Source: Nicotiana tabacum
Lineage: Eukaryota > Streptophyta > Magnoliopsida > Solanales > Solanaceae
NCBI RefSeq assembly: GCF_000715075.1
Contig: NC_134080.1
Location: 32,964,758 to 33,028,757, forward strand
Direction: 5' to 3'
DNA: 64,000 nt
Part shown: positions 35,051-64,000 of the stretch, piece after piece
Layout of the letters: the number at the start of each line of letters is the position of its first letter
Numbering within the stretch: the stretch's first letter is position 1
Made by a program: the position numbers and the translations under genes
Notes under the pieces: generated by a model
What the model was told of the DNA's origin: nothing
Seen by the model: only the letters and a program-made list of their open reading frames with translations
Databases searched by the model: none

Positions 35051-35120
35051 GAACTACGCATACCTGATTCTCGTCTTTTGGGGCGGGATACGTAGGCAGC
35101 CCATATAGGGTCCGGTCTTC
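35051..35120 (+). ncRNA. Putative structured RNA motif, copy a
   Basis: Constant parts GAACTACG and ATACGTAGGCAGCC. CTACG (35054-35058) can pair with CGTAG (35091-35095). The inner hairpin is CTCGTC/GGGCGG including G-T pairs around a T-rich loop, and the downstream hairpin is CCC/GGG around ATATA. Sense to element B. This is a predicted cis element, not a demonstrated RNA gene. Confidence 0.5.
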
Positions 35121-36008: not shown

Positions 36009-36070
36009 GAACTACGCTTGGTCTGATCATGTGGAACATGATACGTAGGCAACCTACATAGGGTTCAACC
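36009..36070 (+). ncRNA. Putative structured RNA motif, copy b
   Basis: GAACTACG ... ATACGTAGGCAACC with CTACG/CGTAG pairing. The inner hairpin ATCATGT/ACATGAT is perfect with a GGA loop, and the downstream hairpin is CCTA/TAGG with a CA loop, followed by GGTTCAACC. It lies 374 bases before the gag ATG of element B. Confidence 0.55.
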
Positions 36071-37760: not shown

Positions 37761-37803
37761 ACTGATCCCGCAGGGGTATTTTTGTCCAGTTTTTCCAACC
37801 TAG

Positions 37804-37811
37804 TATAAATA
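37804..37811 (+). promoter_or_regulatory. TATA box in the LTR of element D
   Basis: TATAAATA within AACCTAGTATAAATAGAAC, directly 3' of the GC-rich array and about 585 bases into the LTR. A standard plant core promoter sequence at the expected U3 end. Confidence 0.65.
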
Positions 37812-41375: not shown

Positions 41376-42618
41376 AAATCCATGAAGCAACCCAATAGCA
41401 CCGAGGTGTGTTCATTTGTGGACCTTGTCACAGCTGTGATTAAAGATGATACAAGTGCTATGATCAACGTGGAGGACCCTCTTGAGGCCGTGCATTTGAA
41501 CATGGATGTCAATGATGATGCTAGTAGGGTGGAATGTGTCAATGCCCTACATGGGATGGGTTCTTATTCTTATGAGCCGAGGAAGCTATCTTTGGATCTT
41601 GAAAGCCGGAAAACTCCACCAACAAAGCCATCAATTGAGGAGCCACCGGTATTGGAGTTGGTGCCACTTCCTCCACACCTCAGGTATGAATTCTTGGGTT
41701 CAAATTCTACTTTACCAGTTATTCTTTCTTCTTGCCTTACTAACATGCAGGTTGATGCCACTTTGGCGGTGCTTCAAAAGCGAAAAAGGGCAATTGGATG
41801 GACTCTAGCTGACATTCTGGGAATAAGCCCCGCATCTTGCATGCACAAAATCATCCTGGAGGAGGATGCAAAGCCTTCATTGGAGCATCAAAGAAGATTA
41901 AATGAGGCGATGCAAGAAGTGGTGAAGAAAGAGGTTATCAAGTGGTTAGACGCCGGTGTGGTTTATCCTATTTTTGACAGTTCTTGAACTTCTCCGGTGC
42001 AATGTGTGCCGAAGAAAGGTGGTATGACTGTGGTGACCAATGATAACAATGAACTCATTCCTACTCACACGGTCACCGGGTGGAGAGTATGTATGGATTA
42101 CCGGAAGCTAAACAAGGTGACCCGAAAAGATTATTTCCCATTGCCATTCCTTGACCAAATGCTAGATCGTTTTGCGGGGCGTGCTTTCTATTGCTTTTTG
42201 GATGGTTACTCGGGGTACAATCAAATTTTAATTGCCCCGGAGGACCAAGAGAAGACAACTTTTGCATGTCCTTATGGCACATTCGCTTTCTCTCGAATGC
42301 CGTTCGAATTGTGTAATGCTCCGGCGACCTTCCAACGTTGCATGATGGCTATTTTCACCGAAATGGTGGAATATATCTTGGAGGTTTTCATGGATAATTT
42401 TAGCGTGGTTGGGGATTCTTTTGATGAGTGTCTGAAAAATTTGGATAGAGTATTGGCGTGGTGTGAAGACACAAACCTTGTTCTCAATTGGGAAAAATAC
42501 CATTTCATGGTAGAAGAGGGTATAGTGTTGGGTCACAAATCTCGAAGCGAGGAATTGAGGTGGATAAAGCCAAGATAGAGGTGATTTTGAGGCTTCCTCC
42601 CCTACTTCTGTCAAAGGG
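41376..42618 (+). pseudogene. Athila reverse transcriptase with disrupted active site
   Basis: The frame 41382-42578 has one stop at 41985 (TGA, expected TGG). It contains a linker, then RKRAIGWTLADILGISP, VQCVPKKGGMTVV, VCMDYRKLNKVTRKDYFPLP, FCFLDGYSGYNQI-type blocks and the catalytic box as FMDN (Asn codon 42396-42398) where FMDD is expected. A one-base deletion near 42537 shifts the frame in GHKS. With one of the paired catalytic aspartates gone, the enzyme would be inactive even without the stops. Confidence 0.9.
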
Positions 42619-43580
42619 GTGAGGAGTTTCTTTGGGCACGCAGGTTTTTACCGGAGGTTCATAAAGGATTTTTCTAAAGTGGTACACCCTTTGTGCAAGT
42701 TGTTAGAGAAAGATGCGAAGTTCTTGTTCGATGAGAGTTGTATGCAAGCATTCGAGCTTCTTAAGCTCAAGTTGACTTCTGCCCGCATCGTTACCGCACC
42801 AAATTGGAGCTTGCCTTTCGAGCTCATGTGCGATGCTAGTGACGTTGCGATTTGGGCTGTTTGGGCCAAAGGATCAACAAGATGTTTCATCCGGTGTACT
42901 ACGCAAGCAAGACCATGAATGAGGCTCAAAGTAACTACACAGTCATCGAGAAAGAGTTGTTGGCTATTGTATTTGCTATGGAAAAATTCCGACCTTACCT
43001 TATGGGGGCCAAAGTTATAGTGCACACCGATCATGCCGCCCTTAGGTATTTGATGACCAAGAAAGACTCCAAGGCGAGATTGATGAGATGGGTGTTACTT
43101 CTTTAAGAGTTTGATCTAGAAATTGTTGACCGGAAAGGTAGTGAGAATCAAGTGGCAGACCACTTGTTCCATTTGGAGAAGGAGGGGAGGCCTTGTGACG
43201 ACCTTGAGATAAATGATTCATTTCCCGACGAGCAACTCCTTGCGGTGTCAATGAATGGAATGCCATGGTTTGTCGATGTTGCCAATTTTCTCATTACCCA
43301 AATAATCCCGTGTGAGCTCTCTTCTAACCAAAGGAAGAAGCTCAAGCGGGATAGCTTGGATTTTTATTGGTACGAGCCATATTTGTTCAAGATTTGCATA
43401 GATGGTGTGATTCGTCGATGTGTCCCGGAGGAGGAACAATTGAGTATTTTGGAGGCTTGCCATTCCTCTCCATATGGTGTCCATCATGGCGGGGCGAGGA
43501 CGACTTCTAAAGTGCTTAGTTGTGGATTCTATTGGCCGACCTTGTTCAAAAGATGCATGCGATTTTGTCAAGAGATGTGA
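42619..43580 (+). pseudogene. Athila RT thumb, RNase H and integrase start
   Basis: 42619-42918 encodes RSFFGHAGFYRRFIKDF and [14 protein letters not shown] (RNase H first Asp present). A frameshift near 42860 leads to 42852-43580 with [13 protein letters not shown], the [14 protein letters not shown] block, [11 protein letters not shown] and a stop at 43104 (TAA, expected CAA). It continues to the integrase zinc-binding region ([17 protein letters not shown]). Frame is lost again near 43545. Confidence 0.88.
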
Positions 43581-44543
43581 CGAATGCCAAAGAGCGGGCG
43601 GAATTTCAAAAAGGGATGAGATGCCTCTCAATACGATTCTAGAAGTGGATATCTTTGATGTTTGAGGCATTGATTTCATGGGTCCATTTGTTAGCTCTTG
43701 TGGGAACACTTACATTCTCATGGCGGTTGATTATGTCTCGAAATGGGTTGAAGTCGTGGCTTTGCCTAATAATGAAGCCCGGAGTGTTGTGGCATTTCTT
43801 AAAAAGAGCATCTTCACAAGGTTTGGCACTCATCGTGTGATTATCAGTGATGGGGGGTCTCACTTTTGCAACAATGCTTTCGACACGTTGCTTTCCAAGT
43901 ACGATGTCAATCATAAGGTCTCTACCCCAATCATCCTCAAGTTAGTGGTCAAGTGGAAGTCTCCAACAGAGAAATTAAGAGCATCTTGTCAAAAACTGTC
44001 AATGCTAATAGGACAGATTGGTCGAAAAAGTTGGATGACGCTCTATGGGCTTATCGAACGGCTTACAAAACTCCAATTGGTATGTCTCCGTATCGGTTGG
44101 TGTTTGGGAAAGCTTTCCATCTTCTGGTTGAGTTAGAGCACAAGGCCATATGGGCTTTGAGGAAGTTGAATTTGGAATGGGATGTCGCGGCAAATCTTCG
44201 AGTTGAACAACTTAATGAGCTCGATGAGTTTAGATTCCATGCCTACTCCAGTTCTTCCTTGTACAAGGACAAAATGAAGTACCTTCATGACAAATATACT
44301 CGGGGTAAGGAATTCAAAGTTGGAGATTTGGTTCTCTTGTTCAATTCCCGGTTATGTCTATTTCCGGGTAAGCTCAAGCCAAAGTGGAATGGGCCATTTG
44401 AAGTTGTGTTCGGGACCCCATTTGGTGCTCTTGATCTAAGGAACAAAAACAATGAAGTTTTCAGAGTTAATGGGCACCGGGTCAAGCATTATCTTGGGAA
44501 ATTTGATAACAGTCACGTGGTAGCACTTCTTCATCTAAAGTAA
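43474..44543 (+). pseudogene. Athila integrase, frame-broken
   Basis: 43550-43665 gives [21 protein letters not shown] (zinc-binding CXXC). A stop at 43663 (TGA, expected TGG) precedes GIDFMGPFVSS with the first catalytic Asp. IISDGGSHFCN holds the second. A frameshift near 43925 separates these from [13 protein letters not shown], the third catalytic region. The C-terminal part 43953-44543 is open and ends with [23 protein letters not shown], the normal Athila polyprotein end. Non-functional. Confidence 0.88.
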
Positions 44544-48752: not shown

Positions 48753-51700
48753 TGTGAGCACGTGATTTTTGCTTCACGCGACAATCGGTCCAAAAGAAAT
48801 AAAAAATAATAACAATTGATCCTGTTGTACAATTTTTGGATTTTTACATGGCACTTTGTTAATTGTTTATGATTTTTTGCCCATTTTATTTTTGTTAAAA
48901 CAAGATACAAAAAATGTATGTGCCATGCATAATTTGAACCGTAATCCGGTTGTTAAACAGAAAATCATAAATAGGCATCTTTGTCCGTGATCTTGTTTTG
49001 TTTGATTTTACCTGTTTTAAAATATTTTAATGTGTGTGCAAATAATTGTATTAAGTGTTTATTTAATTTTAATTTGATTTACTTAGGTTTTGTTTTTAAA
49101 ATAAAGAAGAAAATAAAATAATAATTAAAAAAAAATCTTTTTCGGACTTGGGCCAATTTTAAACAAATTGGCCCAAACAAACTCAGCCCAAAAACCAGGC
49201 TTGCCCGGTCCGTGACCTGCCTACCCCTAGCTATCCAAACGACACCGTTTAATCCAGTATGATCTGGGCCGTTGATCTCAGATTGATCAACGGCCAAGAT
49301 CTCACACCCCATAACCCACTAATGAACCCGACCCGTTCCACCCGAACCAACCTTGACCCCTACTAAGCCAAACGACACCGTTCCACTTAAGCCCTCAGAT
49401 CCAGACCGTAGATCTAGATTGATCTAACAGTTGAGATCAAGCCATCCACCCCGTATATAAACCCTTCCCCCTTCACCCCGCGCCCTAATCCAAACCCCCT
49501 GCCTTAGTTCGTCTTCACCAGACCCCAACCCTCCAAACCCTAGCCGCCCCTGCATACCTTCGCCATGAAAGCCGGCGGCATGGACGCCGGTGACCCTACC
49601 CTTAACACCATAGATGCTCCTCACCGTCCTGAACCCAAATCCACCAACCACACACCTCGAATCCCATCCCACCTTCTCGAATCTTCATTTGAAGATTCGA
49701 TTCAAAACTCGATCTACCCCGATCTACCCTAAATTCATACCAGGCAGTCCCCGGACCCCCCTCGTGACCAAACCATGCTTGGTTTGGTCCGAATCTGACC
49801 AGGGAAGCACGAATCCCGGATCTAATTTTTGGAACTTTAAAGGTCCTCGTCGATGGTCCGTGTCTTGTTCAAACCAAAAGATTAAGGTCTAATGGACCTT
49901 AATCGAAGTGTTTCTCATCTGAGAAACACTTCGATTAAAGCCCGTTCAACCTTAAGAATGGTCTGTCCGAATCCGAGTTAAGGCTTTTGATTTTTCGAGA
50001 TTTGAGGTGAGTTTTGCTTTTCTTTGCTTATTTCTGTTAGTCCATGTTCGTTTAAAAGGTCTGTTCAGGTTTTGTTTTAATCTGTGTTTTGAGTTTTATC
50101 AACTGTTCCTGTCCACCTCGCCCGAACCTCTGTTGTTTGATTGAGTCCTTCTTCTAATTGTTCTGATAATTTGTATGTATGTATTTGTTGTGCAATTAAT
50201 TGAATTTCAAATGTGAACTGACCAACTGATTCCTCCCATGTAATTTTGCTTAGTCAGTACAATTCGAATCATGTGTTCGATACTGTTAAATGTCTGATTT
50301 TGGTCTCGATTGTATGAGTTATAACTAGTATAGTCGAGTCGACATATGTCGTCAATTAGTTTCAGATGTTTGAACAATATACAAATTGATCTGCTTCTGT
50401 TAAGCATTGTATGAATCAGTTAGGAATTGAATTTAGCTACTTATAGTTGTTAATCTGAATCAGAAGTATAAAAGGATTGGTTTTGTTTAGTTGCAGTCAG
50501 AATTGGAGGGCATGTGCACTTGTGCACAACATGTGCATAAAGTCATTTGTTACATTTAAAATAGTTTGACAGCATATGATGTCAGATATATTCTACTGCC
50601 CATTACCATGCTTTAGTTTAAGAAGTATTAAACCTTTTTTTTTTAAAAAAAAGAGTAAGTCTGCCAGGGAATGTTGATAGGGGGTTAATACTTAAATGGC
50701 TAAGTGGAACTGAAAAAAGGAGCACATGGGAGGTATCTGATTGTCTAACAGTCTGTAAAAGGGTGGAATTTAAGCTATAAAGGGAGGAAGAATACACACA
50801 GGACAGACACAAGAGGGAGACAAAGAAAAATTGTTAAGAAAAAAGATAGAGGAGATCAGGAGATAGGTCCGAGAAGAGAAAGCAAAATACATACACATAC
50901 ATACATAGACAGGCACACAGACCTTAAGGGGATTTTTGGATAGACACACACAGAGACAGACATTGATAAGAACAGAGTGAATTGAGAGGGAACACTTTTA
51001 GAAGAGTGAAGTTCTGAAAACAGAAAACTGGAAAAGAACTTTGTTTGATAACTCAGACAGACAAAACTAGAAATTGCATTCTTCCCTGCTGTCTTGATTT
51101 CACTAGTCTTGACCTGTTTGTCCAATACTGATTTCTTCTAAATCCAATTGAGTTTGCTGGTTGTCTGTTGGTTTACTCTGGAACTTGGTCTAGTTGGTTT
51201 CTTAATTCTACTTGCCTCGCTTGTTGCTGCTGCTGCTATTCTGCTTTCTGCTGCTGCTGACCCTTTGCTTCCACTTCTTCTTTGCATTTCAGTATTCAGT
51301 ATTCAGGTACACATTTCGAGTCCCATGTTGGTGTTAACTGTAACAGTTCGAAAGCATGAAATGAAAGGAGTTTGAAGAAGTTTAAATGTCTGTTTGTAAT
51401 GCTCATGGTCTATTGATTTCTTTTGTATAAATTGATTAGTGTGTAATAAAAAAATTAGTTAGTTAATACTTAACTGAGTTTTAGCCTCTTGCATCTTAGC
51501 TTATAGTTGTTTGTTGATATGAGTTGAGTAATGGTACAGTACGTAGAATGTACGGATATTTGACATAGCGACTGACCGGATTCCTGTTTAGCTATAATGA
51601 TATGCATTGGATAGAATACTTCCACCTTACACAATGATGTTCTGTTTTATTTTAGTTTCTTTCATCAGGACCCGCTAGGCAGTATATAGGAGCACGTTTG

Positions 51701-52675
51701 AACCCCCATTGGTAATAATGCCTAGTGGGTTAATTCCCTTAATCTAGCCTAAATGAGTCTAGTTTAAATTCAATTCAAGAGATGTTTTGGATATAAGCAT
51801 AGCATTTTGTCATGTAATTTCTTTGTCAAATTAGAACATTTCTCATAAAGTATGGCGTTTTTTTACTTTACAAATAATTGATTAGAAATTGATAAGAGTT
51901 AGGCCCAAAGCATATGCTTACATGTATCTTTCTTCTTCTATTTTAGACTGAACATAATAAAGATGTAGTCACTGTAGGTTTATCCTTTTAAATAAAAATG
52001 AGACGAACCTCGACAAAATGCACAAGCTGCGGGGCCCTCTAAATGTATATATTAAAATACTTAGAATTCGGGACAGGCCGTGTAGCGAATTTTACGGCCT
52101 TCCCAAAATAATAATACGCTAGTTGCTTCAGGCGTACCTTTAATAATTCAACCTTCTTAAACACGGGTGCACATTGATGTGACCCAAATCCAAATCTCAA
52201 CAGAGTCAAAATGTGTCGACGACCACGAGTGAATTGATTGTGACGTGGTTCGAGATGCATTTTCACGACGTTGCAATTCTATAAAAATAAATGATAATAA
52301 TAAAAGCGGTTTAAAACTTAATAAAAGCACATAAGTCACAACATGTATTTAAATCAGATATTTAGCCATTATAACAATTTAAGCGACCGTGCTAGAACCA
52401 CGGGATTCGAGGGTGCCTAACACCTTCCCTCGGGTCAACAGAATTCCTTACTTAGAATTTCTGGTTCGCAGACTTCATTTGGAAAAGTCAAAAATTTCCT
52501 CGATTTGGGATTCAAGATAAACTGGTGACTTGGGACACCAAAAACCAAACCTTTCCCAAGTGGCGACTCTGAATTAAATAAATAATCCCATTTCGAATAT
52601 TGTCACTTAAATTGGAAAAACTCCCTCGCACATTCTACCCTTCGGGGCCGGGGCGCGCAAAAAGGAGGCGTGACA
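48753..52675 (+). repeat. 5' LTR of Tat/Ogre element C, 3.9 kb
   Basis: Starts TGTGAGCACGTGATTTTTG and ends GGAGGCGTGACA, four bases before the tRNA-Arg primer site. The length of 3,923 bp is large but within the range of Ogre-like LTRs. It contains repeated AACGACACCGTT and GTTGATCTCAGATTGATC-type blocks, a TATA box at 49454, a CT-rich leader, and near the end a block shared with the LTR of element B (ACGGGATTCGAGGGTGCCTAAC). Short open frames inside have no domains. Candidate target duplication CCTAG at 48748-48752. Confidence 0.8.
49454..49461 (+). promoter_or_regulatory. TATA box in the LTR of element C
   Basis: TATATAAA in ACCCCGTATATAAACCCTTCCCCC, about 700 bases into the LTR, followed by pyrimidine-rich sequence suitable for transcription start around 49485-49495. 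Confidence 0.65.
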
Positions 52676-52679
52676 GCTC

Positions 52680-52697: not shown

Positions 52698-53865
52698 TTA
52701 TTAATACCCAGAACCTCCCGTTCAGGGTTCAAGAATTCGAGCTTAGAATAATTGTTATATTTGGCTTTATTATCTGATATTTATTACATGTTTTGACATA
52801 ACGTGCTGCAATGTTTGCTTTTTACTGCTTTGATATTATCTGAACTGTATATAAACTATGTCGAACCTTTCTCTCTTCACCTCCGGGGAGAAGCTCGCTG
52901 GTCGAGGCTCCCTATTCTGTTAGTGTCGATACTTGAAATAAGAAAGAGGATGGATAAGTTACGAAGCCAGACGGCCTTTTGGTTCCCGGTAAGTTGCCCC
53001 TCCTCGACTCGAGTTGTCCGCTCGGGTACACGGTCTAGAACATCTACCCAGGTTATAAACCTAGTATAACGAAACCTCATGCCGGATCCCTAGTAGGAAC
53101 GCTTATCTGCATCATGTTGCATTTGACATAGGGGACTCAACACAGGGGTTGGGTCCGTCTAGGACAAGCAACCTGGAATGAAAAGACCATCCTGCTGCAT
53201 CCCGTTTGTTGTGCGCATCTAATTTGCTTCAGATCTGCATGTTGACTGGTTTCCGAAAAATTTTCAAAAAAAAAAAAAAAAGAGAATAGCCGGATAGGGA
53301 GATAATTACTTATTCTTTTGAAAAAAAAACCCATGTCCGAGTGATGTCAAACCTAACCGGAATTTTCTAAGATAAAAAAAAAAAAGCTCGCCTTTCGGTT
53401 TGACTATTCCTTTTAATCACTTTCAAAATCCAAAAAATATATAAATAAAAAAAAAATCAAAAATTTTATTGTTTCATTTGTAACACCGATTTAAAAGATT
53501 TTCAAAATTTCATTAAAAAAAAGGAAGTTTAAAATGTGTAAATATTTCCCTGGTCTCTTTTCAAAAATAAATAATAAAATGAAAAACAAAACATATAACA
53601 AAATTTCAAAAAAAGGGTTATTCTTCTTTTCTTTAAAGGATTTTTATTTTTGTTTCCCTTATTTTGATCTGACCGAACTACGCCGGTTTGATTCTCGCAC
53701 GGGGTGAGATACGTAGGCAACCCTCGGCGGGTCCAACCTCCCGTTTTGCAAAAAAATTTTAAAAAAAAAAAAATCTAGATAATTTTAATTTTTGAGTCTA
53801 ATAAAGTTTATCACCCTAAATAAATGTGCAGGATGAGCACAATATAAAATGAATCATTTTCAATA
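52698..53865 (+). other. Leader of element C
   Basis: Untranslated, with A-rich tracts (53265-53280, 53430-53460 and 53755-53775), a pyrimidine-rich stretch, and structured motif c. An 88-codon plus frame (52803-53069) has no recognisable domain and no counterpart seen in element B, so I do not call it a gene. Confidence 0.6.
53675..53737 (+). ncRNA. Putative structured RNA motif, copy c
   Basis: GAACTACG ... ATACGTAGGCAACC, CTACG (53678-53682) pairs with CGTAG (53712-53716). The inner hairpin TCTCGC/GTGAGA has one G-T pair, and the downstream hairpin is ACCC/GGGT around TCGGC. It ends 128 bases before the ORF1 ATG. Confidence 0.55.
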
Positions 53866-55881
53866 ATGACCAAGATCCCTTTTGAGTTGCGATTATGGTG
53901 GAACGACTTAGGCAAAGAGGGGCAAGGCAAAGTGAGGAAATATCTGAAAAATCTCCCGGATTTACTAGACATTCAGCCTCGGGGTGATATTATCAGATCA
54001 TTGGTCACTTACTGGGATTCGGCGCACAATGTATTCCATTTTTCAGACTTCGAACTCACCCCGACGTTGGAGGAAATAGCGGGATACATTGGGGGTGATG
54101 AAGCTCCGTTAAGGTTCAAGTACTTGATTGCACCTAGGGCCGTCACGGTACACCGATTTTTGGATTTTTTGAAAATACCCCGAACATTTCACCATCCAGA
54201 TCTTGCCAAAGGTTTCTGCAGTCTCCATCTCATGTATGCTAGATACGGTCATGAAGGCGGGTTCAATAAGCCGGATTTCAAACTATGTAGTAAAGGCAAC
54301 CGACAAAAGTGGGACGAACACAGGCAGTTGGCTTTCATGACGGCCTTCTTAGGTCTTATAGTGTTCCCGAGGAAGGACGACAACATCGATCTAAAAATAA
54401 CTGGGTTTGTCAGTACTTTGCTCACCCAAGATAAGAGTACTCTAGCGCCTATGATTATGGCTGACATTTTCCGGGCTCTCACTGCTTGTCGAGCCAGGGG
54501 CAACTTTTTCGAAGGATGTAACCTACTGTTGCAAATATGGATGACCGATCACTTATGCCGCCGCTCTCCGCTCTTGGGTTACGGTTCGCCTGAGAAGACT
54601 TGCATTGAAGAATTCTACACTAGAGTCAAAGGTTTCAATCTACCTGAGGGCGTCACATCATGGACCTCATTTTTCCGAACTCTCACTGCTAGCCAAATCC
54701 AATGGACGTTCGGATGGTCGTCTGTTGAGGAAATCATATACATGCCAGCAACCAGGCCCCACTTTCTGTTGATGGGACTTAAAAGCATCCAACCCTACGC
54801 CCCATATCGGGTTCTGAGGCAACTGGGGAGGTATCAAGTGGTGCCGAAAGATGAAGATCTGAGTACCCAAGTGATTGAGATCAGTCCAGATGGTCGTTTC
54901 CCCGAAGAAGAAGTTCGCCAAATCTGGAGTGAGTGCCAACATCTGACGGCAAGAACTTGTGTGATGGATATAGCAAAAGGGGAAGTTGCCCCAGGGTATC
55001 ACGCTTGGTTCAGAGGCGACCTGTCTTGCGAAAGACCAGCTAAGAGACCGCATCTCAAAGACTTTGTAGAATCATCCCAAGAGCAATGGAATTGGTTAGC
55101 AAAAGAAAAAGAGTATCGGGCAGAGATCAGTGATTTGAAGCTACAAATTGACAGTCTGAAGTTCAATAACAGTATACAAATCGCGGCAGATCAAAGTGAA
55201 AAGAATAACTTGGTCCAAAAGAATGAAGAACTCAAGGCCCAAATCCAAAAATTGAAATTGTCTCTTGATGAACAACCCAGAAGTCGATCAGACCAGCAGT
55301 TGATTAAGGGTTTAAAAAGAGAAATCGCGAAGTGGCGAGATGGTTTAGAAGAATTGGGAGAGATTATGGCAAAGCTCAAGGCACAGTGGGGGATAAGAAT
55401 AGAGAAGCATCACCGGTATTTGAACCAATCGAAACGCGACCACGAGAAAACTGTTGCCAAAATGAAGAAAGAGATGGCTATACTTGAGATCAAAGCAGCT
55501 GATCAGGCCAAGAATTTCCAAATTGAGAGCAGATACTGGTATGACTCATTAGCCCAGATGAAGTTAGAAGTACGGCGACTGAAGAATCAGCATATGCAGG
55601 ATGCTCAGGTATTCAAGATATGTAGTGATCAGATAAAACGCCTACTCATCGAGAAGAAGCAAACCAGGGATAGGATCAAGGCCATTGCCCATGCCATCAC
55701 CAGACGATGTTTACGATGTGAGAACATGTCCAGCGTTACCATCCTCTCGGCAGTGATGGGTTATGTCAAGGAGACTATGCACGAGCTGGAGCAACTTGAG
55801 AGGGATCTCACGCCTAGGACCGCGGCGAGGCCGAACGATGCCCCGCAGACACCAATTTTCAAAACCATAATGCACTCATAA
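53866..55881 (+). CDS. Element C ORF1 protein, 671 aa, PMD-like/DUF7745-type
   Basis: An intact frame. Residues 1 to about 390 form a globular region with FELRLWWNDLGKEG, GDIIRSLVTYWDSAHNVFHF and FELTPTLEEIAGYIG, which I associate with the extra 5' ORF of Ogre/Tat elements (plant-mobile-domain-like; DUF7745 in Pfam terms, by recollection). Residues from about 410 to 650 are heptad-rich coiled coil (YRAEISDLKLQIDSLK, NNLVQKNEELKAQIQKLKLSL, RRLKNQHMQD). The tail has RPNDAPQTPIF. Function unknown; self-association through the coiled coil is an inference. The ATG follows structured motif c and a short AT-rich spacer. No lesion was found. Element B lacks this gene. Confidence 0.85.
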   Translation: MTKIPFELRLWWNDLGKEGQGKVRKYLKNLPDLLDIQPRGDIIRSLVTYWDSAHNVFHFSDFELTPTLEEIAGYIGGDEAPLRFKYLIAPRAVTVHRFLDFLKIPRTFHHPDLAKGFCSLHLMYARYGHEGGFNKPDFKLCSKGNRQKWDEHRQLAFMTAFLGLIVFPRKDDNIDLKITGFVSTLLTQDKSTLAPMIMADIFRALTACRARGNFFEGCNLLLQIWMTDHLCRRSPLLGYGSPEKTCIEEFYTRVKGFNLPEGVTSWTSFFRTLTASQIQWTFGWSSVEEIIYMPATRPHFLLMGLKSIQPYAPYRVLRQLGRYQVVPKDEDLSTQVIEISPDGRFPEEEVRQIWSECQHLTARTCVMDIAKGEVAPGYHAWFRGDLSCERPAKRPHLKDFVESSQEQWNWLAKEKEYRAEISDLKLQIDSLKFNNSIQIAADQSEKNNLVQKNEELKAQIQKLKLSLDEQPRSRSDQQLIKGLKREIAKWRDGLEELGEIMAKLKAQWGIRIEKHHRYLNQSKRDHEKTVAKMKKEMAILEIKAADQAKNFQIESRYWYDSLAQMKLEVRRLKNQHMQDAQVFKICSDQIKRLLIEKKQTRDRIKAIAHAITRRCLRCENMSSVTILSAVMGYVKETMHELEQLERDLTPRTAARPNDAPQTPIFKTIMHS

Positions 55882-56268
55882 GTCAAGCCTGCATCTTAGC
55901 ATCTTCTGCCTGTTTTTCCCATCACGGTGGTTTTTAGTCTATTTTGAGTCTAGGTTTATTTTCAAAGTTTGCTCTTTCTTTTGCAAAATGTAGTTTGTAA
56001 TAGACCATTTCAACAATAAAGAGGTTGCTTCTTTACGCTCATTTGTGTTTTTCGAACTAAGTAATGATCTGATTCACGTAGGCATCGTGATACGTAGGCA
56101 GTCCTCATCGGATCCAGTCGCATTTCTTTTACTGCAAAATAAAAAAAATAATAATAAAAGAAAAACAAAAACAAAAAAAAGGGAAAAAATAATAAGAGGA
56201 AAAATGCCGGAATGACGCATGCTCTCGTAGCAAACATGTAGTAATCCACTCAACTGTATAGGTGCATC
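55882..56268 (+). other. Intercistronic region between ORF1 and gag
   Basis: 387 bases, with no coding sequence on the plus strand. It holds structured motif d and a purine-rich stretch (56150-56200, AAAATAATAATAAAAG to GGAAAAATG). The downstream frame begins at 56269. Confidence 0.7.
56054..56119 (+). ncRNA. Putative structured RNA motif, copy d
   Basis: GAACTAAG ... ATACGTAGGCAGTCC. The outer pairing is weaker (CTAAG against CGTAG). The inner hairpin is CACG/CGTG around TAGGCAT, and the downstream hairpin GTCC/GGAT includes one G-T pair. It lies between ORF1 and gag. Confidence 0.5.
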
Positions 56269-59200
56269 ATGCCCAACGTGAGATTGACTATCTGTTATTT
56301 GCTACAAATTAACCGTGCGTTTGTCGTTGAGTACCTCCAGGGTTTTTGGAAAGACGGTTGGTTTGGTGAAAGTCTGGCCTCGCACTCATACTTCACGAGG
56401 TCAAAGAGAAGTGTTCAACTACCTGTTGTTAGGACCAGAAGCAGTACTCACACTTACTTCACCAGGTCAAAAGGAAGTGTGGAAATGTCTTCAGAAATTC
56501 CATTGCAAACAATCCCTGTTTCTGAGGAGAGCTCAATCTCAGCCGTCCTCACACCTGAATCCGCAACCGCGGAGGAAAATAGAATCCTACGGCTCCGCAT
56601 GTTGGAAATGTTGGACGACTGGAATAATGGGAAAGAACCGCCAAGTGTCGTCCCCGGATTCCCTGAATTATTCTCCAGGTCGAGTGGGACTTCTAATGTC
56701 CCCATAAATTATCCTGCTACCCCATTCGGGTACCCAGCCACCTCAGCCTTCTCTGTTGGATCGCCTTCTGAGCCTCATCCCCGAATGTCATCCACTGATG
56801 CAAGCATGAACATCTTTACTGCATCGCCTTGCCCGATTACGGCACAGCCTACCACGTACAAGCCAAGCTTTGACTCATCCTCTTTTACATTCCAAGCACC
56901 CTCGTTCTCAATGGAACCAACTAGGTTCGCTACCAGCACTAATCTTCTACCGCCTCAGTGTGAGCTTGCACCCGGGCAAGATCAGAACCCCAGAATTGCA
57001 GAACAAAATGAGATTGCAAAGAGAATGAGAAGCCTTGAACAAAGTTTGAAGAATATGCAAGGATTGAGCGGACAGAAGAGCGTCTCTTACGCCGACCTAT
57101 GCATGTTCCCTCACGTGCATCTTCCAACGGGTTTCAAGACCCCAAAGTTCGAGAAATACGATGGGCACAGTGACCCCATTGCACATCTTAAGAAATACTG
57201 CAACCAATTGCGGGGAGACGGCGGAAAAGAAGAACTGCTAATGGCATATTTTGGGGAAAGTCTAGTAGGGATAGCCTCGGAATGGTACATGGACCAGGAA
57301 ATGTCCCGATGGCATATATGGGATGATCTCGCCAGAGATTTTGTGAAACAATTCCAGTATAACATCGACATTGCGCCTGACCGAAATTCTCTGTCGAATT
57401 TGAAGAAGAAACCTTTAGAAAGCTTCAGAGAATATGCTATTAAGTGGCGTGAGCAGGCGTCAAGGGTGAAGCCTCCCATGGATGAAGTGGAAATGGTCAC
57501 TACCTTTCTCCAGGCTCAAGAGTCTGACTATTTCCAAAACATGATGTCAGCCATGGGAAAGCCATTCGCGGAAGCGATTAAGATTGGAGAGATGGTGGAA
57601 AATGGTCTGAAAACAGGTAGGATTCTGAGTCAAGCAGCCATAAGGGCGACCTCCCAAGCCGTCCAAAGCGGGTCCGGAGGAATGACAAGAGGGAAGAAGA
57701 AGGAAGAAACGACCATGGCAGCCTCGGAAGCAAGGGAGTATCGTCATCCCAGGCCCCGTTTTCCGGAAAGAGCCCCACAACACTACTACCCCCACTCAAA
57801 TTTGGCATATGCTCATCAACCTTATATGGTCATGAATGCCCAGCCTTATGCCCATCCACCACAACAAGCCAACCGTGGCCCAGCTCCACCTCCCAGAAAT
57901 CAGCCTCCTTACCGCAACCACTATAACCCACAACCCCCGCAGAATAACTTCCGCCCTCAAGAGCCACCTCGACGGCGAACTTTCACGCCCATCGGTGAAC
58001 AATACTCTACTTTGTTCCCGAAGCTAGTCCAATTGGGTTTCTTGCAACCAATCCCTCAAACAAGGCAAAACCCGACGTCACCTTCTTACAAAACTGGAGT
58101 CAGATGCGCCTATCATTCAGGGGCCGAGGGACATGATACAAATGACTGCTGGTCGTTGAAAAGAGTGGTCGAGAATTTGATAGAGCAAGGGAAAATAGTG
58201 CTAAGGGACGAAGAGATCCCAAATGTGACTAACAATCCATTGCCTGCTCACAATAATGGGCCGCTAATCGGAATGATTTGTGAAGACAAAGAGTTTGACC
58301 CCGCTCTGAAAGCCATAATTGCCATTGTCGACACGGGGAAGAGGCCCGAAGTAGACCAGAAACTAGAAAAGGGGGAGGAGGCCAAGGCTATAAAGAAAGA
58401 ACTTGAAAAGAAGGTGGAGAAGAAAGTGGTACCGGTAAAGGGTGGAGTTCTTTACATACCACGAGGTCGAGCTGAGAAGACGCAGAACTTTGGAATCAAA
58501 AAGACAAAACCTATGTACGTGCCGAAAGGGGACTATGTGGTCCGGGGGACGATTCAACCACCTCGGCTGAATGAGCCAGTGGTTATCGGACGCGTGCCAC
58601 AAAAGCCAATGACCAACCCGTCCACAGTGCCGTGGAATTATCAAAAGACTTTGTTAATGTACAAAGGTAAAGAGGTCATGGGAGAACTTCCTGAAAATAC
58701 TTTCATTGGAAGGTATTCAAATACCCAAGAGCTGAACAACGCCACACAAAGGCGCTTCCCACCAAAGAAGCCTGTAAGCGTTGAAGAAGCGGAAGTGTTC
58801 TTCCAACAAATGAAAATGCCGGATTACGAAGTGATAGATCAACTGCGCAAGTACCCCGAGCAAGTGTCTATGCTATCATTGTTGATGAGGTCGGCCGAGC
58901 ATCAAAAGATCTTACTGAAGACCCTGAATGAAGCACATGTGCCAGTTGAAACCTCGGTTGAACAACTAGAGCGGATGACGGAAAGATTCTTCGCCGTCAA
59001 CCAAATCTCTTTCAGCAAAAACGATTTACCCCCAGAAGGAGCGGCACACAACAAGGCCTTGCATCTAACAGTTAAATGCGAGGACTACTATGTCAAGCGG
59101 GTAATGTTGGATGGGGGATCAGGTGTTGACATTTGCCCGCTCTCCACGCTACAAAGAATGGAAATTGGGACCGGAAGAATCCGACCCAACAATGTCTGCG

Positions 59201-59640
59201 TAAGGGCTTTCGACGGCATCAAGAGAGATACCATGGGGGAAATAGACCTGTTGTTGGTCATAGGACCAGTCGAGTTTGAAGTAACCTTTCAGGTGCTCGA
59301 CATGGATACATCCTACAATTTCCTCCTCGGCAGACCTTGGATCCATGCGGCAGGAGCTGTGCCTTCCACTCTTCACCAGATGGTGAAGTTCGAGTACGAA
59401 GACCGAGAGATCGTGGTCCATGGAGAAGATGAGCATGCTATCTATCGGGACCCATCCATCCCATATCTTGAACCGAGAGAAGGGAGCGAACATACAGTCT
59501 ATCAAGCTTTCGAGATTGTACTGACAGAGCAGCACGAAGAGGGAATACCCTGCCCCCAGCCTTTCTTGTCTAACGCCTCGGTTATGGTGGCGAAAGAGAT
59601 GATCCGGCACAGATTTAAGTCAGGGAAGGGGCTTGGATGA
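56269..59640 (+). CDS. Element C gag-protease polyprotein, up to a premature stop
   Basis: 1,123 codons. An N-terminal region with twin SYFTRSKRSV / TYFTRSKGSV repeats is followed by a short coiled coil (NRILRLRMLEMLDDW) and a Pro/Ser-rich linker. The Retrotrans_gag domain spans about residues 285-455 (HLPTGFKTPKF to NGLKTGRI). A zinc-knuckle variant CAYHSGAEGHDTNDC is at about 613-627. The aspartic protease has LDGGSGVDICP near 947 and NFLLGRPWIH near 1018. It ends in MIRHRFKSGKGLG, the first half of a G-patch-like motif. The stop TGA (59638) replaces an expected CGA, and the same frame continues to 60011. The true start could be this ATG or a later one (56485, MSSEIP). Confidence 0.88.
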   Translation: MPNVRLTICYLLQINRAFVVEYLQGFWKDGWFGESLASHSYFTRSKRSVQLPVVRTRSSTHTYFTRSKGSVEMSSEIPLQTIPVSEESSISAVLTPESATAEENRILRLRMLEMLDDWNNGKEPPSVVPGFPELFSRSSGTSNVPINYPATPFGYPATSAFSVGSPSEPHPRMSSTDASMNIFTASPCPITAQPTTYKPSFDSSSFTFQAPSFSMEPTRFATSTNLLPPQCELAPGQDQNPRIAEQNEIAKRMRSLEQSLKNMQGLSGQKSVSYADLCMFPHVHLPTGFKTPKFEKYDGHSDPIAHLKKYCNQLRGDGGKEELLMAYFGESLVGIASEWYMDQEMSRWHIWDDLARDFVKQFQYNIDIAPDRNSLSNLKKKPLESFREYAIKWREQASRVKPPMDEVEMVTTFLQAQESDYFQNMMSAMGKPFAEAIKIGEMVENGLKTGRILSQAAIRATSQAVQSGSGGMTRGKKKEETTMAASEAREYRHPRPRFPERAPQHYYPHSNLAYAHQPYMVMNAQPYAHPPQQANRGPAPPPRNQPPYRNHYNPQPPQNNFRPQEPPRRRTFTPIGEQYSTLFPKLVQLGFLQPIPQTRQNPTSPSYKTGVRCAYHSGAEGHDTNDCWSLKRVVENLIEQGKIVLRDEEIPNVTNNPLPAHNNGPLIGMICEDKEFDPALKAIIAIVDTGKRPEVDQKLEKGEEAKAIKKELEKKVEKKVVPVKGGVLYIPRGRAEKTQNFGIKKTKPMYVPKGDYVVRGTIQPPRLNEPVVIGRVPQKPMTNPSTVPWNYQKTLLMYKGKEVMGELPENTFIGRYSNTQELNNATQRRFPPKKPVSVEEAEVFFQQMKMPDYEVIDQLRKYPEQVSMLSLLMRSAEHQKILLKTLNEAHVPVETSVEQLERMTERFFAVNQISFSKNDLPPEGAAHNKALHLTVKCEDYYVKRVMLDGGSGVDICPLSTLQRMEIGTGRIRPNNVCVRAFDGIKRDTMGEIDLLLVIGPVEFEVTFQVLDMDTSYNFLLGRPWIHAAGAVPSTLHQMVKFEYEDREIVVHGEDEHAIYRDPSIPYLEPREGSEHTVYQAFEIVLTEQHEEGIPCPQPFLSNASVMVAKEMIRHRFKSGKGLG

Positions 59641-60011
59641 ACCCTTCAGGGAATAACAAAACCCATTACCTTGCCAGTCACCAAGAAACCTTTTGGACTA
59701 GGTTTCAAACCTACTCCAGCAGACGAAGAGTGGGCAAAGAAAAGGAAAAATGAGGGTTGGAAGTTACCTCGACCACTGCCGGATTTATATGCAACTTTCA
59801 TCAGGCCAAGGTACGCTGAAGAAGAAGATGATGAGGTCTTCACAGCTGAGGAAATCGAGGAGATATGTGGGGCGATGAGAAAGATGCTCTACGAGGTCCA
59901 CATGGTTCAACCAGGTGAAGGCACAAGCATTGCTGAGATGATGTACATGGGACCGAACGCTAAACTTCAAAACTGGGAGGCTACGCCATTCCCGACTAGA
60001 CGGAAGTCCGG
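59641..60011 (+). CDS. Rest of gag-protease exon after the stop
   Basis: Same frame as the upstream gag-protease. It begins TLQGITKPITLP, completing the G-patch-like motif (GKGLG-x-TLQGITKPI), then an acidic stretch (YAEEEDDEVFTAEEIEEI) up to EATPFPTRRKSG. Without splicing it stops at TAG 60013. The G-patch after protease is known in Tat/Ogre elements. It would be translated only by read-through or in a copy without the stop. Confidence 0.75.
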
Positions 60012-60208
60012 GTAGACCTGTCCTGCCACCTTTACTGTGTCACAAGTTATCTCCAGGACATAACTTGAACGTTTTTTTTCTTTTCAATTGTTGTTTTAAG
60101 TTGTATTGTTGTCTTCCAAATTTCCAAAGAAAAAAAAAATCATCATTGCTTTCCCATTCTTTCTTTTGTTCTGATTTTTGTTATTTTTCCTTTTATTTTT
60201 CTTTTCAG
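60012..60208 (+). other. Predicted spliced intron between protease and reverse transcriptase
   Basis: 197 bases starting GTAGAC and ending TTTTCTTTTCAG, with a long pyrimidine tract before the acceptor. Removing it joins codon ggt (60010, 60011, 60209) and keeps a single open frame through HNNAALNMTCLR into RT. Without splicing the TAG at 60013 stops translation. An intron at this place is established for Ogre elements. Confidence 0.85.
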
Positions 60209-62210
60209 TCATAATAATGCGGCTTTAAATATGACATGCTTGCGGACTTCACGCCCAGATCACAATGAGTCATTTAACTGCGAATTAATGAACCCAGAAC
60301 CAGAATATGATGCGGAAGGGGCTTTTAGGGAGATAAACCGAGAGTTGGAATATTTTGAGAATAAACCTAAGCCAAATCTGAATGACACCGAACCGGTTAA
60401 TTTAGGAACTCTTGAAGAAATCCGGGAGACCAAGATAAGCATTCACACGGACAAGAAAACGCGAGAGGCGATAATTCAACTTCTTTTTGAATTTAAAGAT
60501 GTGTTCGCTTGGTCATATGATGACATGCCGGGACTAGGTGTTGATCTAGTGGTTCATAAATTGCCGATTCATCCTGATTGTCCTCCAGTTCAACAAAAGC
60601 AACGAAAGTTCAAAACTGAGGTCAGTGACAAGATTAAAGAGGAAATCACCAAACAACTGAAAACGGGAGTGATTCGGGTAGTCCAATATACAACATGGTT
60701 GGCGAATGTGGTTCCAGTACCAAAAAAGGACGGGAAAACTCGGGTATGTGTAGATTACCGAGATCTGAACAGAGCAAGTCCTAAAGATAATTTCCCGCTG
60801 CCCAACATCCACATCCTCGTTGATAATTGTGCCAAACACGAGATACAGTCTTTTGTAGATTGTTACGCTGGGTATCATCAGGTATTGATGGATGAAGAGG
60901 ACGCCGAGAAAACTGCCTTCACCACGCCTTGGGGCACCTACTGTTACCGGGTCATGCCATTTGGTTTGAAGAATGCTGGGGCTACTTACATGAGGGCCAT
61001 GACTGCCATTTTCCATGACATGATGCATCAGGAAATAGAGGTGTACGTGGACGACGTGATAGTCAAGTCCAGGACGCAGGATAATCACATCCAAGACTTG
61101 AGGAAATTCTTCGAGAGATTAAGGAAGTATGACTTGAAGCTGAACCCAGCCAAATGCGCTTTCGGAGTTCCGTCGGGCAAACTTTTGGGCTTCATCGTAA
61201 GCAGGAGAGGTATCGAGCTAGATCCAACTAAGATAAAATCCATCAGAGATCTACCTCCCCCAAGAACAAAGAAAGACGTGATGAGTCTGTTGGGCAGGTT
61301 GAACTACATCAGTCGGTTTATTGCCCAGCTGACAAGCACGTGTGAGCCCATATTCAAGCTGTTAAGGAAAGATGCGGCGATTGAATGGACAACCGAGTGT
61401 CAAGAAGCCTTTGATAAAGTCAAAGAATACCTTTCGAATCCCCCGGTCTTGGTCCCTCCAGAACCAGGGAGGCCACTCTTCTTGTATCTGACAGTCTTGG
61501 AGAACTCTTTCGGTTGCGTCCTCGGGCAACACGACGTAACCGGAAAGAAGGAGCAAGCAATCTACTACTTGAGCAAGAAATTCACCGACTACGAGGCCAA
61601 ATACACTCTGCTGGAAAGGACATGCTGCGCTCTCACGTGGGTTGCTCAAAAGCTGAGACATTATCTCCAAGCCCACACTACGTTCCTCATAAGCAGGTTG
61701 GATCCTTTGAAGTATATATTTCAGAAACCAATGCCTACTGGGAGACTGGCTAAATGGCAAATCTTGCTTACGGAATTCGACATAGTCTATGTCACTCGCA
61801 CAACAATGAAAGCCCAGGCACTAGCAGATCATTTGGCCGAGAATCCGGTTGATGAGGAATACCAGCCATTGGATACCTACTTCCCAGATGAAGAGGTAAA
61901 TACTGTAGAAGTAGTCTCAGAGGACGCTCATGTTTGGAAGATGTTCTTTGATGGAGCCGTAAACGCCAATGGTGTAGGGATTGGGGCAATTTTAATCTCG
62001 CCTTCTGGTCAGCATTATCCCGCCACAGCTAGACTTCGTTTATTTTGCATGAATAATACAGCTGAGTATGAAGCCTGCATCATGGGCATGCATATGGCAA
62101 TCGATCAGGATGTCAAAGACTTACTGATTATGGGAGATTCTGACCTGATTATCCGGCAAACCCAAGGCGAATGGGAAACTCGGGATGTCAAACTTATCCC
62201 GTACCGATAG
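60209..62210 (+). CDS. Element C reverse transcriptase, first RNase H and start of second RNase H
   Basis: Counting from the ATG at 60231, VCVDYRDLNRASPKDNFPLP lies near residue 171, FVDCYAGYHQV follows, and the catalytic YVDD is at 272-275. Thumb sequence (LGFIVSRRGIELDP, LLGRLNYISRFIAQL) is complete. The first RNase H spans about 410-530 (LFLYLTVLENSFGCVLGQ), with E where an acidic D is usual. The second, archaeal-type RNase H starts at about 570 (MFFDGAVNANGVGIGAI), with AEYEA and MGDSDLI. A dual RNase H is characteristic of the Tat lineage. The frame stops at TAG 62208 (expected CAG), inside the second RNase H. Confidence 0.9.
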
Positions 62211-63662
62211 CATGTAGAGGACCTCAGCAAGCGCTTTACATCAATAGAGTTCAGGTATATCCCGAGGTGTCACAATGAACTGGCAGATGCACTTGCTACT
62301 TTGGCTTCAATGCTGCCCTACCCGGGCAACGCCCACGTCAATCCTTTGGAAATCCAAATCAAGGAAAGACACGGTTACTGCAATGTAATCGAGGCGGGAT
62401 CAAATACGCAGCCTTGGTACCATGACATCAAGAGGTTCCTAAAGACACAAGAATACCCCGAGCACGCTACTGGAGATCAAAAGAGGACCATTAGGCGACA
62501 TGCAAGTGGTTTCTTTCTGAGCGGTGAATTGTTATATAAGAGGACCCCGGACCTCAATCTCCTAAGATGTGTCGATATCGAGGAAGCGAGAAAGATCATG
62601 CACGAAGTACACGCAGGTGTGTGCGGACCTCACATGAACGGGTATGTTTTAGCGAAGAAAATCCTTCGAGCAGGTTATTACTGGATGACCATGGAAAAGG
62701 ATTGCTTTAGCTTCGTTCGGAAGTGTCATCAGTGTCAGGTGCACGGTGACTTGATTCATGCACCTCCCACGGAGCTGCATCCCATGTCTGTACCTTGGCC
62801 ATTTGTCGCCTGGGGCATGGACGTCATTGGACCAATCGAACCAAAGGCTTCGAATGGACACAGGTTTATACTGGTTGCCATCGATTACTTCACAAAATGG
62901 GTAGAAGCTGTCACTCTCAAGTCGGTCACTAAAAAAGCTGTAGTTGATTTTGTACACTCAAATCTTATCTGTCGTTTCGGTATTCCTGCGACTATCATTA
63001 CAGATAACGCAGCAAACTTGAACAGTCACTTAATGGGAGATGTATGCGAGCAATTCAAGATAACGCATAGGAATTCTACTCCTTATCGGCCGAAAGCCAA
63101 TGGTGCTGTGGAAGCGGCGAACAAAAACATCAAGAAGATTTTGAGGAAAACTATCCAAAGTTCCCGACAGTGGCATGAGCAGTTACCATTTGCATTGTTG
63201 GGGTATCGCACTACGGTACACACATCAGTAGGAGCGACTCCTTATCTTTTGGTTTATGGGACCGAGGCTGTAATACCAGCAGAGGTAGAAATTCCTTCGC
63301 TTCAAACCATTGTCGAAGCGGAAATCGAAGACAGCGAGTGGGTCAAGACTCGGTTAGAGCAATTGACTTTGATTGATGAAAAGCGAATGGCCGCAGTTTG
63401 TCACGGACAGTTATACCAACGAAGGATGGCCCGTGCTTACAACAAGAAAGTCCGACCCAGGAATTTCGAAGTAGGTCAGCTGGTACTGAGGCGTATTCTG
63501 CCACATCATGAGGAAGCAAAAGGGAAGTTTGCCCCAAATTGGAAAGGCCCATACATCATAAGGAAGATATTGCCGAGAGGAGCATTGTATTTAGGTGATA
63601 TCGAAGGAAATGACCCCGACACAGTAGTAAATGCGGATGCAGTCAAGAGATACTACGTCTGA
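62211..63662 (+). CDS. Element C second RNase H end and integrase
   Basis: Same frame as the RT exon. It begins HVEDLSKRF and CHNELADALATLAS, the end of the second RNase H. Counting from the ATG at 62301, the zinc-binding residues are H101, H105, C141 and C144 (CHQC). The catalytic core has D174 (GMDVIGP), D235 (TDNAANL) and E271 (GAVEAAN), an exact D,D(35)E spacing. The C-terminal part PNWKGPYIIRKILPRGALYL is typical, and the polyprotein ends AVKRYYV. No other lesion was seen. It could only be expressed by read-through of TAG 62208. Confidence 0.88.
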   Translation, partial: HVEDLSKRFTSIEFRYIPRCHNELADALATLASMLPYPGNAHVNPLEIQIKERHGYCNVIEAGSNTQPWYHDIKRFLKTQEYPEHATGDQKRTIRRHASGFFLSGELLYKRTPDLNLLRCVDIEEARKIMHEVHAGVCGPHMNGYVLAKKILRAGYYWMTMEKDCFSFVRKCHQCQVHGDLIHAPPTELHPMSVPWPFVAWGMDVIGPIEPKASNGHRFILVAIDYFTKWVEAVTLKSVTKKAVVDFVHSNLICRFGIPATIITDNAANLNSHLMGDVCEQFKITHRNSTPYRPKANGAVEAANKNIKKILRKTIQSSRQWHEQLPFALLGYRTTVHTSVGATPYLLVYGTEAVIPAEVEIPSLQTIVEAEIEDSEWVKTRLEQLTLIDEKRMAAVCHGQLYQRRMARAYNKKVRPRNFEVGQLVLRRILPHHEEAKGKFAPNWKGPYIIRKILPRGALYLGDIEGNDPDTVVNADAVKRYYV

Positions 63663-64000
63663 ATTATACTCCAGTAGTCTTGACACATTCGAAATGATGA
63701 AGGTTTTATTCCCACTACTCCCCAAACACTACCCAATTCTCTCTACAAACCTTTGAGCCGCTTACAAAAAAAAAAACAAAAAAAAAACAAAAGAAAACAA
63801 AACAAAAACATTGATTGAGGCCTGAACTACGTTTGACTTGATTCCGAAAGGATACGTAGGCAGCCTCTCCCTGAGGTTCAGTCACACCAACAATACAATC
63901 CCATTCGCCCTGAAATTGAAACCGGGGCACGTCGAGCAGTTGAGAAGTTAGTATCATCTACCTCTCTTTACCAAGCACAAGCCTCCAGATCAATTACCAA
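63663..64000 (+). other. 3' region of element C, incomplete
   Basis: Non-coding, with an A/C-rich tract (63766-63810) followed by structured motif e. No polypurine tract or LTR start is reached before the window ends. Confidence 0.6.
63824..63883 (+). ncRNA. Putative structured RNA motif, copy e
   Basis: GAACTACG ... ATACGTAGGCAGCC, CTACG pairs with CGTAG. The inner hairpin is TCC-GAAA-GGA, a GNRA-type tetraloop, and the downstream hairpin is CCTC/GAGG, followed by GGTTCAGTC. It lies 162 bases after the integrase stop. Confidence 0.55.

Follow-up and report, generated by a model that had tools for sequence, protein, structure and literature searches.

A 64,000-nucleotide stretch of the Nicotiana tabacum genome (hereafter the window) was found to contain a long terminal repeat (LTR) retrotransposon, apparently of the Ogre group, in which a short sense-strand motif recurs at non-coding sites. 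This motif very probably forms an RNA structure that is conserved and acts in cis in the sense transcript. Its copies occupy four sites: before the first open reading frame (ORF1), between ORF1 and gag, after the integrase (INT) region, and 77–105 nt upstream of the polypurine tract; copies at these sites are designated M1 to M4. The Ogre group includes some of the largest LTR retrotransposons and is abundant in some plant genomes.

The conserved sequence, about 60–67 nt long, is supported as a predicted fold in which helix P1 (CTACG/CGTAG) would enclose a variable hairpin, P2, and be followed by a second variable hairpin, P3. The original prediction, made from the letters alone, had described this two-hairpin arrangement, and both variable hairpins were supported. 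It had missed the best-supported helix, a putative pseudoknot in which the strand just inside P1, namely the four bases before TGATTC, would pair with the last four bases after P3. The single-stranded joints (GAA, TGATT, ATA, parts of GCA and the base before the last strand) were near-invariant.

All five copies listed in that prediction were recovered on the plus strand, and the inner and downstream hairpin pairings reported for them exist; M4 of the same element, just beyond the window, had been overlooked. CTACG/CGTAG was present in four of the five, the copy at 56054 having CTAAG. All four pseudoknot pairs form in the copies at 53675 and 63824, and three of four in the remaining three copies. 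Allowing at most one mismatch, the core ATACGTAGGCA occurred five times in the window, always on the plus strand, with 0.6 occurrences expected and none of 100 shuffles reaching five.

Alignment A3 comprised 101 matches, one of them noise; it was fitted to the three helices P1–P3, leaving the pseudoknot out of the fit (columns 8–12/63–67 for P1, 17–20/98–101 for the pseudoknot, 26–30/55–59 for P2 and 71–74/92–95 for P3). In A3, 92.5% of the cells paired, and 189 cells were changed on both sides compared with 52.9 in shuffles; when partners were slid by one to three columns, pairing fell to 15–46%. The noise match (window 47–111, E 3.3) was part of A3 and of its shuffle test and was excluded from the re-dealing, tree and pseudoknot analyses. 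From the first alignment, L026 (a chance match) and L052 were left out and five identical rows were merged; L052 was included later.

Among the 146 merged copies, all from one genome, the pseudoknot had four Watson–Crick pairs in 105, or 119 when G–U was counted. Seven fully Watson–Crick combinations were observed: GACC/GGTC, GACT/AGTC, GGTT/AACC, GGTC/GACC and GATC/GATC, together with AACC/GGTT and AGTT/AACT in one copy each. When the 3′ strands were re-dealt among the 24 distinct A3 combinations, only 3 of 100,000 deals were as good as the observed 72 of 96 pairs (mean 53.5). In 46 copies outside the model, mostly of M1 and M2 type and kin of the model copies, the pseudoknot was full in 42 counting G–U and in 32 by Watson–Crick pairs only, and 118 cells were changed on both sides compared with 47.9 in shuffles. 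The earlier claim that pairing is kept under sequence change thus held on up to 146 copies.

Shuffling and re-dealing ignore the relatedness of the copies. A tree-based null, written as the authors' own script and distinct from R-scape, was therefore constructed from the motif itself: column changes were placed randomly on the branches, and the best four-pair stack found anywhere was compared. For the distinct rows of A3, P2, P3 and the pseudoknot were the top non-overlapping stacks, reached in 1, 1 and 2 of 200 simulations, respectively. For the 146 merged copies (133 distinct), the pseudoknot was the best of 1,971 four-pair stacks and P2 the second, and neither was reached in 500 simulations. 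Off-register stacks of the pseudoknot 5′ strand (18–21/92–95 and 17–20/93–96) were reached in 12 and 20 of 500 simulations, respectively.

The helix-level tests were devised after single pairs had proved non-significant against the tree-based null with 75 distinct sequences (best E 0.1). In that test, pseudoknot pairs 20–82 and 18–84 had E values of 1.55 and 6.9, and a pair foreign to the model, 41–58, was among the top six. The original prediction had named a lack of significant covarying pairs as grounds for rejection; covariation was present at the level of helices and did not reach significance for individual pairs. Its proposal of selection on RNA structure is supported by the helix-level covariation.

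By parsimony, double changes that keep a pair fell on five branches for the pseudoknot, eight for P2, five for P3 and two for P1, and pair-breaking changes on 24, 25, 12 and 15 branches, respectively, the latter as expected for a genome full of decaying copies. P3 was absent from the listed stacks of the 133-copy test, which may reflect its fourth pair being gapped in many rows; support for P3 comes from the shuffle, the A3 tree-based and the 46-copy tests. Energy alone lent the fold no support: RNAalifold returned only four P1 pairs at −0.75 kcal/mol, and single-sequence energies of six copies were ordinary (z −1.37 to +0.16).

Selection of copies bears on P1. Of the 146 copies, 107 were chosen by exact core match (67 of A3's 100 and 40 later), so that the invariance of columns 60–70 is partly due to this choice; likewise, the near-invariance of P1 stems in part from the use of its 3′ strand in picking copies. 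The pseudoknot strands lie outside the selection pattern. P1 is supported by an A–U pair at columns 12–63 in 12 copies of the M4 class, the same position being G–C in 121 copies and A–C in 9.

In a strand test, G–U pairs outnumbered A–C mismatches by 130:41, the excess lying wholly in P3 and the ratio outside P3 being 33:34. Sufficient flanking sequence was available for 64 copies, 20 of them with distinct flanks; for these 20, mean best 30-nt identity was 0.57 and 0.61 in two parts of the motif compared with 0.43–0.47 on either side. An additional closing helix between GAA (columns 5–7) and TYC (95–97) was considered and rejected: A–C occurred at 6–96 in 12 of 100 copies and at 7–95 in 7 of 100, and position 95 pairs standardly with position 71 in all 100 copies, 71 of them as G–U.

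The motif copies and the coding modules of their elements are collected in Table 1.

Table 1. Motif copies, coding modules and LTRs in and just beyond the window (window coordinates; E values from the covariance model)
Feature	Position	Strand	Basis	Pseudoknot strands and pairs formed
M1-type copy, older element without detected ORF1	35051..35117	+	E 1.7e-15	TACC 35061-35064 / GGTC 35114-35117, 3/4
M2-type copy, same older element	36009..36070	+	E 2.9e-18	GGTC 36020-36023 / AACC 36067-36070, 3/4
5′ LTR of host element	48753..52678	+	self-BLAST	
M1, 5′ leader upstream of ORF1	53675..53738	+	E 8.9e-18	GGTT 53685-53688 / AACC 53735-53738, 4/4 Watson–Crick
M1, helix P1	53678-53682/53712-53716			
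M1, helix P2	53694-53698/53704-53708			
M1, helix P3	53720-53723/53729-53732			
ORF1 of host element	53866..55881	+	plant mobile domain PF10536 and DUF7745 (PF24924)	
M2, between ORF1 and gag	56054..56119	+	E 1.4e-16	GATC 56066-56069 / AGTC 56116-56119, 3/4 including one G–U
gag ORF (Retrotrans_gag)	56269..59640	+	ORF list and domain search	
Reverse transcriptase (RT)–RNase H ORF, second RNase H-like domain (RVT_3) at its end	60231..62210	+	ORF list and domain search	
INT ORF, same frame as the RT ORF	62301..63662	+	ORF list and domain search	
M3, after INT	63824..63883	+	E 3.9e-21	GACT 63835-63838 / AGTC 63880-63883, 4/4
M4, fourth copy of host element, beyond the window	67642-67728 (L017:3642-3728)		covariance model	
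3′ LTR of host element, beyond the window	67827-71774		self-BLAST	

The genome searched comprised 3,996,098,646 bases (4.0 Gb). Core pattern ATACGTAGGCAGYC gave 6,898 matches on one strand and 6,684 on the other (13,582 in all) compared with 2 + 2 for the reversed pattern, and GATACGTAGGCAAYC gave 19,398 + 18,727 (38,125) compared with 2 + 1; owing to repeats, these counts are lower bounds. Nearly equal numbers on the strands are to be expected if elements insert in both directions.

The window, its flanks and twenty 10-kb loci were searched with a covariance model that was derived from 57 distinct aligned copies and left the pseudoknot out. Across all loci scanned, matches ended at E 1e-7, the next one having E 3.3. 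Orientation was far from the random distribution that the original prediction had regarded as damaging: 45 of 46 copies in the loci had the same sense as the reference (25 of 26 when reference copies were excluded), and protein matches lay in the motif sense in all 20 loci. Partly deleted elements among these loci retained motif copies. Locus L036 carried two M3-type copies 1.2 kb apart (3799–3878 and 4969–5048), perhaps through duplication or nesting.

In 12 of 15 late copies, the purine tract AAAGAGNGGNAG followed the last pseudoknot base by 77–105 nt (97–105 nt in ten); the remaining three (L020, L021 and L024) had no such tract in the next 260 nt or in what was left of the locus. That an LTR begins at this tract is supported by the repeat pair of the window's element only, where about 115 nt separate the last pseudoknot base of M4 from the 3′ LTR. 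By eye, the polypurine tract at L017:3780–3830 seems to lie in a hairpin (CTTTG...CAAAG), and the divergent L022 has CTTTACCC/GGGTAAAG-like arms at the polypurine-tract hairpin, which looks like kept pairing.

The positions of M1 and M2 were also predicted for five elements known from late gag to beyond M3, their sites being computed from RT and 4.8 kb examined in each. In three (L081, L082 and L083), M1 before ORF1 and M2 between ORF1 and gag were found with E 7e-16 or better; the core was still recognisable in these elements with ORF1 at 32–45% and gag at 30–43% identity to those of the window. The predicted stretch of L079 gave neither protein matches nor the motif, and L080 is weighed below.

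The first 100 places of the GATACGTAGGCAAYC search contained 36 neighbour pairs within 4 kb, of which 35 were on the same strand. Thirty of these ran from the ACC type (M1) to the ATC type (M2), one ran in reverse and four were ACC–ACC. The 30 M1–M2 spacings fell into two groups, 539–1721 (16 pairs) and 2384–2889 (14 pairs), and the gap between the groups approximates the size of ORF1, which suggests that elements apparently lacking ORF1 keep both flanking copies. Loss of ORF1 was read from the spacing, from the older pair of the window and from L020, L021, L036 and L038, rather than from the sequence of all 16 pairs. No ORF1 match was found between the copies in these four loci or in the older element of the window, where a gag fragment (36919–37296) lies downstream of the copy at 36009; L024 matched only the last 39 residues of ORF1.

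The assignment of the host to Tat/Ogre elements, made in the original prediction, was supported by an ORF1 with the plant mobile domain and DUF7745, followed by gag, RT–RNase H and INT, and by LTRs of 3.9 kb each that were 97.4% identical (self-BLAST of the window against neighbouring sequence). As judged from its domains, the element appears to fit the Ogre layout (Tat, Ty3/gypsy) described in the accessible text of PMC6317226, where the plant mobile domain is given for 57% of Ogre elements. The extra ORF upstream of gag carries PF10536, the second RNase H (RVT_3, residues 573–650 of the RT ORF) lies between RNase H and INT, and a non-coding gap (59640 to 60231) separates the gag and RT ORFs, all of them Ogre hallmarks. 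Two caveats apply to this layout: RT and INT form two ORFs in one frame with a stop between them, and the domain search of the gag ORF listed no protease at E 0.001. Splicing was rejected as a common function of the motif, since no copy lies in the window's gag–RT gap, the site of the intron in pea and Medicago Ogre according to the accessible text of PMC6317226.

In the leader, a good candidate 5′ splice site (CCCG/GTAAGT, 52988) and a 3′ site (ATGTGCAG/GATGA, 53831) flank M1, which may thus lie in a leader intron. Acceptors like that at 53831 follow M1 in L033, L024 and L082, and CAG/GTATGG sites were seen in two others (six of 11 in all).

A tandem repeat array with units of about 132 bp lies between M3 and M4 (window coordinates 65435–67106, L017); in related Retand elements, about half have tandem repeats between pol and the 3′ LTR, as stated in the accessible part of PMC11963269. 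An antisense ORF of 169 amino acids (L017:547–1056, minus strand) is the only one of at least 150 amino acids in the 9.9 kb after the window. The host element is surrounded by an LTR-like repeat pair (37220–38430 and 72724–73943, 93.6%), whose element has a weak, below-cut-off protease match at 40218–41375 and RT and INT matches at 41754–44492, the latter 30–34% identical to Ogre RT and INT. It seems that a 23-kb Ogre was inserted into the element of this repeat pair, in which the covariance model search found no motif. Elsewhere in the window, positions 28414–28510 match the MIR6152 microRNA precursor family (RF03625, 112.5 bits).

The order of strands in the motif (P1 5′ strand, pseudoknot strand, hairpin, P1 3′ strand, hairpin, pseudoknot strand) is that of the nested double pseudoknot of hepatitis delta virus (HDV)-like ribozymes, in which P1, a P2 strand, a hairpin, P1, a hairpin and a P2 strand succeed one another. 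In contrast to these ribozymes, the motif has a P1 of 5 bp, a pseudoknot of 4 bp, a TGATT joint between the pseudoknot strand and the hairpin, a conserved GAA upstream of P1 and only 2 nt before the last strand. In HDV, P1.1 consists of pairs between a hairpin loop and the joint after P1; the motif has no constant partner for such pairs, and its hairpin loops vary. The P2 loop was GAAA in 25 of 100 copies (25 of 31 in the GACT/AGTC class); elsewhere, other loops were seen by eye.

Among the xrRNAs, the exoribonuclease-resistant RNAs, the xrRNAD class of dianthoviruses, poleroviruses and relatives resembles the motif, according to the accessible text of PMC6299227, in being a short pseudoknotted RNA with constant joints and conserved bases before the 3′ pseudoknot strand, and in being placed between genes as well as in the 3′ untranslated region (UTR), there in plant-infecting RNA viruses. 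As for xrRNAs, the pseudoknot of the motif is supported by covariation. Sub-threshold Rfam searches (E up to 10) gave seven matches for the M1 region and none for the M3 region, with no ribozyme among them; Rfam may cover the xrRNA classes incompletely, and the negative is limited to that extent.

The original statement that no named RNA family resembles the motif agrees with the literature searched (titles and beginnings of abstracts, supplements and most subscription papers being outside its reach), in which the hits listed contained no description of the motif. A text search for ATACGTAGGCA returned, within the same reach, a single paper on a chicken gene, and the accessible text on the pol–3′ LTR stretch of related Retand elements mentions no such motif, secondary structure or hairpin (PMC11963269). 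Eight IMG/VR stretches with GATACGTAGGCAGCC were rejected as relatives, as they lack GAACTA before the core, and no related Ogre locus was confirmed in IMG/VR by RT and INT protein.

Among the possible functions, a fold that blocks RNA decay was tentatively ranked first, although it is doubtful in itself; the ranking was given because plant-virus xrRNAs occupy sites similar to those of the motif, which lie ahead of coding modules and in the 3′ part. The motif would act in cis, relying on its own tertiary fold or on a conserved host partner and not on a family-specific protein. Plants possess a 5′-to-3′ exoribonuclease, XRN4, and the compact pseudoknot could halt it, so that decay of the long transcript would leave protected ORF1, gag–pol and 3′ RNAs, as with plant-virus xrRNAs, which are intergenic as well as in the 3′ UTR (accessible text of PMC6299227). 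The near-constant joints together with freely changing helices point to the tertiary fold itself as the functional object, and the recognition of the core despite divergence of ORF1 and gag favours a self-standing fold or intrinsic property, or a host partner.

Several observations weigh against this reading. The off-register stacks leave room for an alternative partner of the pseudoknot 5′ strand in part of the copies. In L080, ORF1 (28%) and gag (39%) are present, and M1 and M2 were not found even with filters off (best E 2.6). M3 and M4 are followed by no sense ORF of at least 150 amino acids in the 9.9 kb beyond the window and none of at least 200 in the rest of the window. At the gathering threshold, no Rfam family matched the motif, the microRNA being the sole match in the whole window. 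The strand order and sequence of xrRNAD, as far as given in its source, differ from those of the motif, whose host is an LTR retrotransposon, and the same positions would be expected of elements for packaging, export or stability.

Of the alternatives, a packaging or dimerisation signal, with Gag or the ORF1 protein binding the fold and several copies raising specificity, is credible yet rather improbable. M1 occupies the stretch from the 5′ LTR to the first ORF, in which known retroelements have their packaging signals, and a pseudoknot is part of the Ty1 packaging sequences. To our knowledge, the Ty1 leader has a single 5′ domain, whereas the tobacco motif recurs four times, at the borders of modules. 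Packaging sequences are located at the 5′ end of Ty1 RNA, and the Ty1 leader, which also carries translation and RT signals, is likewise a structured cis-acting RNA of an LTR retrotransposon (accessible text of PMC5454406 and PMC8396678, the packaging sequences from the former). Elements without their own ORF1 or pol would then keep the motif for packaging in trans, in line with the short-spaced M1/M2 pairs, which suggest that both copies are kept without ORF1, and with the copies retained in partly deleted elements. In contrast, the core is near-constant while gag diverges to 30–43% identity, and four copies over about 14 kb exceed the need of known signals. A role in exporting or stabilising the long transcript, which is partly unspliced, through recognition by a host factor is unlikely. 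Retroviral transport elements and the direct repeats of Rous sarcoma virus are structured, act in cis and sometimes occur in multiple copies around accessory genes; the number of copies, of which two lie in the 3′ part, and a constant core suited to a host partner agree with this, but no relation to such elements in sequence or fold emerged at Rfam thresholds.

Translation start, one of the functions suggested originally, follows as an equally unlikely or slightly poorer candidate, by internal entry or by restart ahead of ORF1 and gag. It suits M1 and M2, whose ends lie 127 nt and 149 nt before the ATG of ORF1 and gag, respectively, and the 15 ATGs in the leader between the LTR and ORF1 make plain scanning of unspliced RNA unlikely. 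It does not suit M3 and M4, which precede no sense ORF of at least 150 amino acids, whereas an internal ribosome entry site would lie directly upstream of an ORF each time; moreover, splicing at the apparent 3′ site downstream of M1 in 6 of 11 M1 copies could shorten the leader. A new class of self-cleaving ribozyme that cuts the transcript at the borders of its modules is very unlikely: its HDV strand order and the constant joints with variable helices common in ribozyme cores are offset by the destruction of genomic RNA that efficient cutting at four sites would cause, by the conservation of GAA upstream of P1, where HDV needs no such bases, by the lack of an Rfam ribozyme match and by the GAAA tetraloop, which leaves no P1.1 partner in 25 of 31 GACT/AGTC-class copies. 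That the motif is a conserved DNA sequence without RNA function, its pairings inherited by chance, is highly improbable; the copies are related, energies are ordinary and single pairs are non-significant, but the helix-level tree-based simulations and the 46 copies outside the model speak against it.

Decay blocking and self-cleavage would leave different traces: with the former, 5′-monophosphate ends would pile up at or just before GAACTACG, and with the latter, 5′-OH ends would be expected. The motif could perhaps represent a new self-standing class of pseudoknotted RNA with the HDV strand order and a different core, present four times per transcript, partitioning the RNA into separately stable or cut modules and kept by elements without ORF1, and possibly the first intercistronic RNA module system in an LTR retrotransposon, a view held here with considerable reserve.

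The covariance model provides an annotation tool for module boundaries, even in elements missing coding parts. For the expression of gag behind ORF1 and the handling of such long transcripts, the motif at module boundaries offers a concrete target; should it prove to block decay, cleave RNA or promote packaging, the RNA stage of the Ogre life cycle would become testable with short transcripts.

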